A DNA stretch of 64,000 nt, taken from NCBI GenBank assembly GCA_021432635.1, contig MU270056.1:239656-303655 (forward strand), given 5' to 3'. Every line of letters starts with the position of its first letter. Position 1 is the first letter of the stretch. The translations under genes and the position numbers were made by a program. This DNA comes from Thozetella sp. PMI_491 (Eukaryota; Ascomycota; Sordariomycetes; Chaetosphaeriales; Chaetosphaeriaceae). The notes under the pieces are model-generated. The model did no database searches and was not told the origin of the DNA. It saw only the letters and a list, made by a program, of their open reading frames with translations. Shown piece after piece: positions 21,816 to 34,100 of the stretch.

Positions 21816-21990
21816 TCTGCAGGTCATGGTCAGTGAATGAATGGGTCGACGGCGTGGGAACCGGCAGATCCCTACCGCCCAATTGACGGATGGCAGCTGC
21901 CACCGCAACCCGGTCGTGGGGACGAGGCCGACGGGCTGCTGCTCGGAGAGAGCGGCAAGAGACGTGAAGAAGAGCGAATGTGTATTTACC
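21816..21990 (-). other. Possible 5' UTR intron of the DUF8035 gene
   Basis: Upstream of the ATG at 21508 there is a GTAAAT donor at 21989 and a CTGCAG acceptor ending at 21817, with CACTGACC just before it as a branch point. An intron of about 173 nt in the leader would fit. This is a motif reading only. Confidence 0.35.
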
Positions 21991-28390: not shown

Positions 28391-29335
28391 CGCGACAGGG
28401 TTGACAGGTTGCTAAGGTCCGTGTCTGTAATGAAGTTCCCGGCGGGATCGAGTCGACTTGATAGAGGAAGCGGGGATGTCGACAAGTGCAATGGGATAAG
28501 GTGAAGAACACGCGGGGTAGAAGGAAGAGACGCAAAGCAATGGAGCTTGGGGATGTATGGTTTGCTTATAGGAGACACGGTGGGTTAGGATGCCGACTCG
28601 GCCTCAGAGCACATTGGCCGTTTCTCGTTTGAGAAGGTGGTTTCGCTGGCTAAGCTGTCGTAGTGAGGGGATGGCCGACTCTCTTATCGCCAACCAACCC
28701 CGCTGGCGGACGACGAACTAGGGTGGCCGTAGAGGTTCTTGGCCCAATGACGAGCTTCGAGCTGCTGCCGCCCCCGAGCTACACACATCCAGCGTTGCCA
28801 TGTACATACCTGAAAATTGAATCTAACAGATTCGTTCTTGCTGATGTGCATACTAATGGGGATTGCAATCTCAATAGAGGTCTACAGCTTGGCTGTAAAT
28901 TAGCGATCATTGTATTACCAACTCCCCCCCCCTCTTTAACAGCCCCAATGTGAAGGCGTTGCTCTATTACTGGTACGAGATATTGCTACGGCGCCCCAAC
29001 GAGCGCATTTTCCAGCAAGTCATAGGAACAAATGCAGGCAAACACGGAATACTATGAGTCAAGGTGCTTCCATTAAAACCATGTACATGATTGGGGGGGA
29101 AGTACGTCTCCTATCTAACACTGCAGCTATCCGACGGGCTCCTTCGCATTGCCGACCGGCACCTGATATCCTGTCCCAATATCGAATTTTATCCAATCTT
29201 GAAAAATCAACACCTAGAAACATCATGTCCGGGTTCCCCACAACACCTCACAGATGCAGGGGGGCAGAGAGCAAATGCAAGGGGCTTATATCATGGTTCG
29301 TTGCAAGGGCATCATGACCTGAGGGGTCAGGTGCT
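28391..29335. other. Intergenic spacer
   Basis: Promoter side of the bleomycin hydrolase gene and 3' flank of HEX1. No gene or clear motif was seen. Confidence 0.6.
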
Positions 29336-30063
29336 TTAGAGGCGCGAGCCGTGGACAACCTTGAGGTCGACGGCCAGCTCGCGGCCATGGTCGTTGACGA
29401 CCAGGATGCGGACGCTGCCGCGGCCCGAGTCGAAGGCGTTCTGCAGGCGAGACCACAGGTTGGACTGGTCGATGACGGGCAGGTTCTGCTTGACATCGCC
29501 AGACTCGGTCATGGCGACGACGGTGCCATCCTGCAGGTCAAGAACGCGGTACTGCTTGAAGACGGGGCCGAGCATGGTCTGCACGACGACCGACGGGGCC
29601 GGGTTGGAGACGGACGATGACTCCTCGTGCAGCTGCTTGGTGAAGAGGTCGACGCCGAGGTACCGGTGCTGGCCAGTGGCGGCCGAGGTCGAGATGCGGA
29701 TGACCTGGCAGGGGCGGCCCTGAAGCATCAGGATGTCGCCCATGCGGATGTGGTGGCACGGGATGGTGACCGTGTTAGGGGTGTACGAGCCCTCGGCAGG
29801 GTAGCTGGGGCCGCGCGACTCGCGCACCTCAGTCACCTTGACGCTGTCATGGTGGTGGTGGTGGTGGTGGCCTTCGGGGTGCACAAGGCGGTCAGCAAAC
29901 TTGTGCAGGCCGTGGCGGAAGGAGTGGTAGTGGCCTGGGGTAGTAGGCGTTAGCCTAATGCTTGGTCCATGGGTAGGGGGAAGGGTGGTGGTAGACGATT
30001 GGACAGTGGAGGATGAAGAGGAGAGTGATAGGATAGCTTACCGTCCTCGTCGTAGTAACCCAT
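29336..30063 (-). CDS. hex1: Woronin body major protein HEX1
   Basis: Short form in two exons, 30063-30042 and 29934-29336, giving 206 residues. HEX1 self-assembles into the crystalline core of the Woronin body, a peroxisome-derived organelle that plugs septal pores after hyphal injury. The start MGYYDEDG matches the start of the Neurospora protein. A His-rich linker with seven consecutive His follows. Then comes the conserved core from TVTIPCHHIRMGDIL onward, an eIF5A-like fold of two beta domains. The protein ends in SRL, a peroxisomal targeting signal type 1. The intron has donor GTAAGC and acceptor CCCCAG with a GCTAAC branch site, and splits a Gly codon. The ATG at 30063 is the first ATG on this strand for nearly 1.4 kb upstream. 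A longer in-frame extension exists upstream and is entered separately. Confidence 0.97.
29851..29873 (-). repeat. CAC/His-codon repeat in HEX1
   Basis: A GTG trinucleotide repeat on the plus strand (CAC on the coding strand) that encodes seven consecutive His in the linker ahead of the HEX1 core. Confidence 0.85.
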
Positions 30064-31130
30064 CTTGGCTTTCTGGCTGGGGTTCTGGTAACGGGGGAAC
30101 TCAATGGTCTCCTCGACAACCTTGGTCTCTTTGTGGAACTGGGGGCGAGGGACAGAGGCGTCGACGGTGTACTCGTCAACACGAACGCTCTCCTTGAAGA
30201 CGGGGCGCTGGTGGCTTGGGGGATCGACGGTGGTGCCGGTCACGCGAACTTCCTCACGGTAGTTGGGCTGGAAGCGAGCACGGTACTCACGCTCAGCAAC
30301 GTCGATGGGAGTGTCGTAGGGGCGGTGGTTGCGGTCGACCTCAATGCGAGATTCAGAGTAGGTAGTCTGAGGCCTGGAAGGAAGAGAAAGTAAAGTGTCA
30401 GTCGAAGGAAGTTCGGGGGTGTTTTTTTTCTCGTTTCTTGGTCAACAAGGGACCGGGGTAGGAAATTGGGTTATTGGCCCCTGTGTCCAAGCTCCTGTGG
30501 GGGGGATGACCAAAAAAGAAACCCAGGACACGAATTGAATCGCCTGATGGCTAGCAGGCCCTGCAGGGGGGCTTGCTCAGGCGAGACGCGAGAATGAGAC
30601 CGCAGTGGCTTTTCTGTGCGTCGAGAGCCCCGGCCACCGCGCACGTAGACGCCGACGTCCAATGGGTGCCGATCCGAGCTGGAAAAGAGCTCGCAAACGC
30701 GGGGGGAAACAAACACAACAACAAAAACAAAAGAGCACACTGACCTGCGGAACTCTTCGCGGTGGGACGAGTGGTGGGTACCGGGACGGCGGTATCGCTC
30801 CTCTTCACGAGTGATGCGGACCTCTTCTTCGCTGAAGCGTCGCTGCTCTCCTCGAGGAGGAAGACCGGCTTGGGCTTGGAAAGAAGAGTATTGACCTTCC
30901 CGTCCGGCCTTGTTGGGGAGCTTGAATTCGACCTCCTCGTGGGTCTGGGTGGTGGTGGTTGTGGTCTTGTCGGCCTTGTCCTCCTTGTAGGAGGATGGGA
31001 AGACGGAGAAGGGGACCGGGACGCGGGCTTCAAAGTCCAGATTGACGACCTTTGCGGGCGCAGAGAGGCAGTCTTCTCGCGCAACCTTCCGAGTAACGAA
31101 AGGAAGACAAGAAGATCCCTCTTGCTTCTT
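30064..31130 (-). other. ATG-less N-terminal extension / 5' leader of HEX1
   Basis: Two stretches, 31130-30745 and 30373-30064, join through an intron (donor CAG|GTCAGT, acceptor TTCCAG) into one open frame of 232 codons that runs directly into the HEX1 start Met. The frame begins after a TAA at 31133-31131 and contains no Met codon. Translation is protein-like and charged, with segments such as VVNLDFEARVPVPFSVFP, RRFSEEEVRITREEERYR and YSESRIEVDRNHRPYD. An in-frame CTG at 31040 has A at -3 and G at +4, a favourable context for non-AUG initiation. No YAG acceptor lies between 31130 and the conserved-looking start, so an upstream ATG exon would need an unusual acceptor. From the CTG, the long protein would be about 408 residues. 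Long and short HEX1 forms are, to my memory, reported in other moulds. The start codon here is inference. Confidence 0.65.
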
Positions 31131-34100
31131 TTAAAAAGAAGTCGAAAGAAAGAGGAGTGTGGAAGACAGGTCAGCAACCTCGTCTTCTTGAACTCGGGTT
31201 TCTTGTCGATTTCTTAGGGGCAGGAGGGGCACAGGTTTGGATTTGTGGATGGATCTGAGTGGACAGAAAGAAGAGAGGAGGAGAGGGGAGCAGGCCGGAG
31301 CAGAAGCAGGCGCCACCTTCAAATATTGGGCGGCAGCGTTTCCGGGGAGCTCTGGCTTGGTTGTCTGGTTCGACAGGCCTGCCGGTGGGCTGCGGAGGCC
31401 AATGGGGAGTCGCGGTGGACAGCTTGGGTGTCAGGGTTTGAGTGCATCTGACGGCCTGGCTTGCCTGGCTCCGAGCTCTGTTTACATGGGTGGAGACCTC
31501 GTTGTTTATTGCGGTTCAAAGGAGCTTAGCGGGCCCGGTTTTCACCGCCGCAGTCCCCCCTGATTGATCAGCGGCCCGGCGCCAGCCCCCCCATGTCCAC
31601 CCCCGGCCAGCAAAGAACGCGTCCCCTTCCCACTCCACCCCCCGTTTTGGAGCTAGGAGCTGTGCCGACATGAGCTGAAGGCACCGCGTCTCATTCGACG
31701 GCCGACGGGCCTCGACCGCCAGGCCGATAGAGCTTCCAACCTTTCCAACCACCCCAGGAAACGAACGAGCGAGACGGGCGTGCTTGATTGCATGCGAGGC
31801 GAGATGATGGGAGAGTCTAGCAGCAGCACAACAGACCGTCCCAGCCCTCTCTCCGGCCGGGCTTCCTCGGTCCATTGGCATCATCAGCTGGGCTGGGAAA
31901 TTTGGCTTTCTGGGGGTGGGAGCCCCGATCCTGTTTTGTGCTGCCCAGAAACCAGAGAGCACCAGAGTAGCTGCTCCACTTCGTATTGTCACAGGCATAT
32001 GGCTCGACGCCACAACACAGTTTGACAGGCCCTCGCGGCCCTCTCTTGTTAACCTTCCGCTTTGGCGCCGAACACAGAGTGCACGCCGGGAGGCCACCGC
32101 GATTCAGGAAGCAACCTAGCAAGCAAAATGCCTCGTCTGATTCAAAGGCGCGAGAGCCCGGCGGCTTGCGATCGGCCTCTCCCCCATCCAGCATTGCCTT
32201 TTTCTCCAATCAAGGAGGAGGGGGTTGGATTTTTGGTGCATCCTGTCGTACAACCTCGACCGAGGCTGGACTTTGTTTTTATGCTTCATGTTCTGCAGAT
32301 TAAGGCACACCGGAGGGGAGATCAGCACGACCACCACACGTCTCTATTGGTGGCAGCCATGCATAGTCTCCCAGCCTCCCTGCTGCCGGGCCTGCACAAT
32401 TGAGGCATCTTCCATGCTCGTCAGCAACATCGTGGACCCTCGCCATTGGGCTTTCTCCCGCCTTCGGTTGACGCATGCCTAAATGCCCAAGAAACGAGGC
32501 AGGAGCTGGGCCTGCATTTGGGTTCATGGACAGGTATGTAATTGCATCTTCTTGGACCCAGCACGCCATCGCTCGAATAGCTTGCCTTTCCGTAGCATCT
32601 GTACGGAGCAATGTACTCCTTCCTCTCCAGTAGCTTCACCCACTAGGAAACCAGATGCCGAGGATCTCCAACCCAATTGCAGACAGTTGGCATGGCAACC
32701 TTGCCGCTGCGGGCGCTAAATCCCGGCCCGTCCGAGCCCCCCCTCCCCTGTCTCGGTTGTCACATGCCTGCCAAAAGGTCCCACTGCTGTGGGAGGGCCT
32801 CCGAAATAATGGCAGCCCCGATCTGTGCAGCGACGGCCGAGACATTATCTGGGTAGAATGGAAGCAACGAGCTGGTGCTGAGCAAATCTAGAGTGCCAGG
32901 TAATTGAAGCCGCTGCCTAAGTGGCGATATGTTTCCCGGCTGTCCTGCTTGCATGGTTCTCTATATGAATCAGTGCCTAGTGAGACGAGAATTTCGTGGC
33001 ACGGAACAAGGGTGTGCTGGCGTGAGGTGAATGTTCAACAGCAGCAACCACTTATATAGTCCTTGTATGGAGCACCAATGGGCTCTGCTTGGAAGGAGTG
33101 TAGAGGGCACAGCAGGATCACGATACCAAGCCTGATAGCAGCGTATGCCGTCGTATCCTCTTAACTTCCGCGGGACTATATCCGAGAAGGGCATCGCCAT
33201 CTATACGATACAGCTGCTCTCCAGTCGCCCACTCGTCTGTGACTTCATCGCGGTGTTGTTGCTACACTACGGGAATGGTCAATTGGCAGTGGATTTTGGT
33301 GAATTGATTAGCGTCCAAAGTCTGTGATGCCTGCATTGCGTGAACGGCCAACAAACAATGCTCGAGTGCAACAAAGCAACAAAACCGTCGCGACTGCAGC
33401 CATGACTTTTTGCAGATGTCGCAATATGACAGGAGACGCAGCTCTAGCCCTTGCGCAACAGAGCTTGCGACTGAACGCTCAGGAATGCCATTCTAGTTGA
33501 TATCTGACGCAGAGCCCATCGATCCTCAGCAGGTGCTTCATTGGCCTTGGTGAATGTCTCTCATAATGCTATTGTGGTTCGGTGACACGGCTGGCATTCT
33601 GGTTTCACTCAAGTGCTCCGGGTTCGATTCCAGTGGAACTCTTCTGGTTGCTTGCAGGGTAATCACATCTTTGAGACGGAATCAAGGGGACAGCGCATCA
33701 TGGGCAGTCCTGCGCGTTGCTCTTTCCTTTCACAAACAATAGCGCTTTTGTCCCTGTACCGAGACGAAGGCAGGAACCAACAGCCCTCACTTCGCCATTC
33801 GAGCGGGACCGAGCTCCAGACCAAGTTGCCAAACTCAGGGAGTCATCTGGTGTCCTCGACCCTCTCGACTCTCTCGATCCTCTCGACTTCCCAGACCCTC
33901 TCCTCATTACGCAGACACGAGCGAAAGACACGAAGGCAACCCGAAATCAAGGCTTCGCGGCGCAGCATCCATCTGCCTCGGTGTCAGTGCCGATGATGCG
34001 GCTACCACGAGACATCGACGACAGCGCTCCACCAGCCACGGCTAGCGAGATCGCCTTTTCCCTCATCCTCGGCGTCCTCGCTGGCGCCTTAGGATTCTGT

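Follow-up and report, generated by a model that had tools for sequence, protein, structure and literature searches.

In the fungus Thozetella sp. PMI_491, the gene for HEX1, the major protein of the Woronin body, is preceded by a long open frame that runs into the gene without containing a single ATG. Is this frame coding sequence, and if so, where does its translation begin? We addressed these questions in a 64,000-nucleotide (nt) stretch of contig MU270056.1 (hereafter, the window) from a genome assembly of 72.3 Mb in 157 contigs. The extension is very likely real coding sequence. On balance, we favor a non-AUG start for it, with a CTG at position 31040 as the clear candidate. All features of the locus lie on the minus strand and are given in window coordinates, in the direction of reading.

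The gene extends from 30063 to 29336 and encodes a product of 206 residues. Over residues 1 to 206, this product matches a solved HEX1 chain in the Protein Data Bank (PDB; 8qlw_A, E = 3.1e-110), and its IF5A-like_N and eIF-5a domains both score above cut-off. The first AUG (30063-30061) sits in a context of A at -3 and G at +4 and opens a short coding exon (30063-30042) that specifies MGYYDED plus one base of the next codon, and a 107-nt intron (30041-29935) follows at the end of the N-terminal MGYYDEDG. The body of the protein (29934-29339) carries the eIF5A-like domains and ends in the peroxisomal signal SRL (29347-29339), followed by the stop codon at 29338-29336. HEX1 genes are described as sharing a conserved N-terminal hexapeptide of the MGYYDD type and an intron near the start (PMC7762394). 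Here the hexapeptide is MGYYDE, with the intron right behind it, and both the domain and structure matches and the C-terminal SRL are present, which identifies the gene as HEX1. Near the N terminus, within 29934-29339, the protein has a run of seven histidines; a histidine motif in HEX1 is reportedly required for septal targeting in Aspergillus fumigatus and absent in Neurospora crassa (PMC7762394).

The 1,384 nt that separate 31447 from the start of HEX1 at 30063 contain no ATG in any frame of the minus strand. In the frame of HEX1, a TAA (31133-31131) is followed by 232 open codons (696 nt), which cross a 371-nt intron at 30744-30374 and enter HEX1 in frame. Splicing of this intron is predicted from its signals: it begins with GTCAGT, ends with CTTCCAG, contains what looks by eye like a branch motif (ACTGAC) near its 3' end, and is itself free of ATG. 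Read from the CTG (31040-31038), the extension consists of exon A (31040-30745) and exon B (30373-30064) and adds 202 residues to the 206 of HEX1. The resulting long form of 408 residues and the short form, with calculated masses near 47 and 23 kDa, both end in SRL. Upstream of the TAA, the region 31330-31134 is presumed to hold the core promoter and the beginning of the 5' leader, where transcription would start; C and T make up 65% of 31330-31131. A first-pass annotation, made from the letters of this DNA, had put forward the ATG-free strand from about 31445 to 30063 (intron included), the 232 open codons running across the intron into HEX1, and the two products of about 408 and 206 residues with a common SRL end, and all of these held when recomputed. 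The combination is rare by chance. Only 3 of 2,000 dinucleotide shuffles of the 1,381-nt leader were ATG-free, and among 5,000 shuffles of the 696-nt frame, 27 were open, 494 were ATG-free, and none was both.

The evidence that the extension is coding comes from codon usage. We trained a codon-usage model on eight long open reading frames (ORFs) of the window, leaving HEX1 out; of the seven scanned against Pfam, five gave a match and two did not. In the spliced frame, the score per codon was 0.164 log units for exon A and 0.205 for exon B, while the other two forward frames were negative. For comparison, the eight ORFs reach 0.059 to 0.264 per codon when scored on their own training data. The 30 open codons between the TAA and the CTG (31130-31041) scored -0.065 per codon and carry no coding signal. 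Against 2,000 dinucleotide shuffles each, z was 5.0 for exon A, 6.7 for exon B, and 8.2 for both together, with none of the 2,000 shuffles scoring as high. In blocks of 30 codons, the score rose from -2.6 log units before the CTG to +6.6 directly after it, and the six blocks after it spanned 3.0 to 10.4. We repeated the test with the model trained on the five Pfam-supported ORFs only and with four background sets. The block before the CTG then scored -1.9 to -5.5 and the six after it 0.2 to 10.5, and the extension as a whole reached +31 to +58 against -59 to -90 for its other frames. The extension is well supported as coding because this codon usage is frame specific, appears in both exons, and begins near the CTG. 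The protein-like composition claimed in the first-pass annotation is thereby substantiated.

Of the 202 residues of the translated peptide, 36 are acidic and 35 basic; the peptide lacks Met, Cys, and Trp and is probably disordered. Searches of Pfam and the PDB with the extension gave no matches, and in a self-search of the whole genome it significantly matched only its own two exons. We found no relatives of the extension or of HEX1 in viral contigs, plasmids, or bacterial and archaeal genomes, sets that hold no fungi as such and are uninformative on conservation.

An ATG-free leader by itself was rejected as proof of special initiation because two further long ATG-free runs lie on the same strand of the window. 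The first (23335-21827, 1,508 nt) is upstream of an 885-codon ORF (21508-18854) that has no Pfam match, and a short ORF begins at the ATG at 21827, where the run ends. The second (5322-4343, 979 nt) is pyrimidine rich. Both look like ordinary long leaders, the second probably so. As a control, two open frames in the 23335-21827 leader were scored with the same codon model; at -0.247 and -0.145, they showed no coding signal. What distinguishes HEX1 is that its leader is both ATG-free and coding.

This distinction persisted in a survey of both strands of 264 kb, made up of the window and one 10-kb locus at a fixed position on each of 20 contigs. With 7,403 letters masked and two masked runs of one locus (L017) left out, nine ATG-free runs reached 600 nt or more and were scored; a single locus (L018) contributed four. 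Strong coding segments occurred only in the HEX1 run, at 30.8 and 20.9 log units, versus 9.7 or less in the other eight; runs 23335-21827 and 5322-4343 had none. In this first version, two of the nine runs, the control leaders, had served to train the background model, so the scores of those two runs are lowered by construction. With a background drawn from the base composition of each run, the HEX1 segments still scored 21.2 and 20.8, versus 8.7 or less elsewhere. Two of the surveyed loci were unusual in themselves. The four ATG-free runs of L018 (G000 C12:200001-210000), 724 to 2,203 nt long, have 21 to 29% GC in a locus of 44% GC; such low-GC runs resemble those of genomes with AT-rich, repeat-mutated blocks. 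In L017 (G000 C11:200001-210000), 7,243 of the 10,000 letters are masked as N, and the known letters have 61% GC.

Where, then, does the extension begin? With A at -3 and G at +4, the CTG at 31040 is in the good context ascribed to it in the first-pass annotation. Between the stop codon and an ATC at 30815, it is the sole in-frame codon among CTG, GTG, TTG, ACG, ATA, ATT, and ATC, the only other near-cognate being AAG. An in-frame CTG in this context appeared in 140 of 5,000 shuffles of 31133-30984. When the background was drawn from base composition, the best coding segment started at 31052, four codons before the CTG. The CTG therefore lies inside the likely range of coding onset and is not singled out by the change-point test alone.

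The most economical reading is dual initiation, and we consider it rather probable that a single HEX1 mRNA yields two proteins, depending on the codon at which translation starts. Ribosomes would scan the AUG-free leader, and some would start at the CTG to produce the 408-residue form, with its charged and probably disordered arm of 202 residues. The remaining ribosomes would leak past the CTG, travel about 600 nt without meeting an AUG, and start in strong context at 30063 to produce the 206-residue form. The SRL end that the two forms share should bring each of them into the Woronin body, and the HEX1 lattice there could be decorated by the long chains. By the same token, what the arm adds should be a property inside the Woronin body or at its surface and not a different destination; the arm's role, like the ratio of the two forms, is conjectural. 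The 606 nt from the CTG to the AUG are ATG-free in all frames, as would be expected of a coding stretch that must also be scanned, and none of 1,472 overlapping 606-nt windows from the training ORFs is ATG-free. Of the dual-initiation proposal made in the first-pass annotation, the coding extension is thus upheld, and the near-cognate start is rather probable.

Several results weigh against this reading or blunt the evidence for it. The ATG-free state is not unique, given the two other runs, and the intron alone is unremarkable, being ATG-free in 192 of 2,000 shuffles. The figure of 0 in 1,472 is weaker than it looks because its components are each unremarkable: a stretch of 202 residues would lack Met with a probability of 0.037, and out-of-frame ATGs were absent from 802 of 5,000 synonymous recodings. 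At the CTG itself, any of the seven near-cognates in the same context turned up in 577 of 5,000 shuffles of 31133-30984. The onset of coding is broad: the 12 top-ranked change points range from 31100 to 30986, and in the single-codon test the CTG lies 1.5 log units below the best of them. No RNA hairpin stood out near the CTG (z = -0.97). A peptide-repeat test was weak: the observed value was reached by 13 of 1,000 shuffles in frame 0 and by 212 and 55 in the other frames.

A more conventional explanation is that an upstream exon, joined to an acceptor other than YAG (for example, the AAG before 31127), supplies an ordinary ATG for the long form. We judge this unlikely. Downstream of a CTGAC at 31174 there is a pyrimidine tract, and the first AG behind it (AAAAG, exon start 31127) makes the whole resemble a 3' splice site, which makes this acceptor the most serious of the upstream-exon combinations. 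An exon from an ATG at 31884 or 31671 to a donor GTGAAA at 31545, joined to this acceptor, would serve as an example, and if any GT donor is allowed with any AG acceptor in 31140-30940, there are 948 in-frame combinations. Annotation programs normally want an ATG, a point that we counted in favor of an upstream exon. We counted the abundance of long HEX1 models in GenBank, where 235 of 460 have 405 to 534 amino acids (aa) (PMC7559983), in the same way. Splice signals of ordinary quality argue the other way. Of the donors within 2.2 kb upstream of 31100, the one at 32643 alone has three of the four consensus bases, and no pair of a good donor and a YAG acceptor that would give an in-frame upstream ATG exon was found there. 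The absence of a YAG acceptor between the stop at 31133 and the proposed start, as stated in the first-pass annotation, was confirmed: the first is a CAG, from which an exon would begin at 30944. Furthermore, an exon starting at 31127 would include codons in the 31130-31041 segment, which lacks coding signal, and a pyrimidine-rich stretch is also typical of a fungal leader. Upstream exons scored 10.1 at best; the scarcity of ATG in the background set inflates these scores, and so they do not decide the matter. A spliced upstream exon supplying an in-frame ATG had been named beforehand as a result that would overturn dual initiation; a well-formed one is missing from these 2.2 kb, and weak pairs with a non-YAG acceptor exist.

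Alternatively, the extension may be a former ATG-started N terminus whose ATG was lost in this strain or misread in the assembly, for example, by a change of ATG to CTG at 31040, so that the long form is now decaying or the CTG is an error. The CTG is indeed one base from ATG and sits where the coding signal begins. Against this, the frame is open across both exons with no stops. We regard this explanation as improbable. Finally, it is highly improbable that the extension is merely a long untranslated leader, kept AUG-free by selection for scanning and open by an accident of composition: the window does contain the two ATG-free runs described above, and in one of these, frames of 282 and 293 codons are open, but those frames lack coding signal, whereas the HEX1 extension has it in both exons and in the spliced frame only.

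Non-AUG extensions of the kind proposed for HEX1 have a published counterpart in CPC1 of N. crassa and other Pezizomycotina, which likewise has a long in-frame extension without ATG, near-cognate codons in good context, and isoforms (PMC5487733). Four near-cognate codons of N. crassa CPC1 act as starts in vitro, in cell extracts, and the in vivo data fitted, according to the same source. CPC1 differs from HEX1 in being a transcription factor with regulatory upstream ORFs (uORFs). The genome of Thozetella sp. PMI_491 contains a CPC1 homologue (C34:463904-464062, locus L027; 74% to a typed bZIP query) that has the architecture published for non-AUG extensions in Pezizomycotina. Two ATGs lie upstream, the first of them opening a short uORF, and the main frame is open for 231 codons ahead of its first Met. 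The extension of this homologue contains an out-of-frame ATG and has a weak codon signal (blocks of -6.2 to +1.7), in contrast to the HEX1 leader, which has no ATG and a strong signal. It follows that the codon score can miss real extensions and that the signal of the HEX1 extension is the stronger of the two.

Other systems resemble HEX1 in single respects. In Ustilago maydis, a non-AUG start extends the N terminus of 6-phosphogluconate dehydrogenase, also a peroxisome-linked protein; that extension supplies a PTS2 targeting signal (PMC7214817), while the HEX1 forms both end in SRL and the extension adds no targeting. Two HEX1 protein forms occur in Verticillium dahliae and Magnaporthe oryzae, where they arise by alternative splicing; they have 209 and 188 aa in the former (PMC7762394) and 439 and 417 aa in the latter (PMC8475275). 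Each of those pairs shares a start and differs by 21 to 22 residues, as opposed to 202 residues gained through the start here. Nor does the 107-nt HEX1 intron offer the corresponding splice site: its extra AGs lie 102, 26, and 20 nt upstream of the 3' end, versus the 63 to 66 nt implied by 21 to 22 residues. The long HEX1 models in GenBank, such as that of Metarhizium robertsii (392 aa), fall in a similar size class (PMC7559983), a comparison by length and not by start codon.

A second, broken copy of HEX1 lies near the end of a contig (G000 C57:437315-437665, locus L003 4316-4666). It is 83% identical to HEX1 over 351 nt and has one internal stop. Of its 61 differences, 39 fall at third codon positions, and the commonest changes from HEX1 to this copy are C to T (21), C to G (10), and G to A (9). 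When window positions 29001-33500 were compared by blastn with the 5.8 kb around the copy, the HEX1 fragment was the single match, so the copy is uninformative on the extension.

Long HEX1 proteins are not new, since long models are already common in GenBank: in the survey cited above, 112 of 460 have 405 to 469 aa and 123 have 470 to 534 aa, and HEX-1 of N. crassa is listed at 176 residues (PMC7559983). That HEX1 N termini differ among molds had also been stated in the first-pass annotation. In the V. dahliae study, the variability of N-terminal extensions is suspected to stem from annotation error (PMC7762394). Among the matches listed in a literature search on the Woronin body and HEX1 start codons, which most subscription papers lay outside of, we found no report of a non-AUG start for HEX1. 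The new part would therefore be a coding extension without an ATG, and hence a non-AUG start.

The length of HEX1 has been confusing so far, and an extension that is coding yet ATG-free offers a simple cause. More tentatively, and with more doubt than confidence, we propose that many filamentous ascomycetes make two forms of HEX1 by choice of start codon, with a near-cognate codon for the long one. On this view, the extensions of about 200 to 330 residues that about half of the GenBank models imply would be real, and long chains, as the minor form, would lend the Woronin body lattice a disordered coat or tether in an amount governed by how strictly start codons are selected. If the long form described here does begin at a non-AUG codon, the stringency of start-codon selection would determine what fraction of HEX1 is long in the organelle that plugs septal pores.

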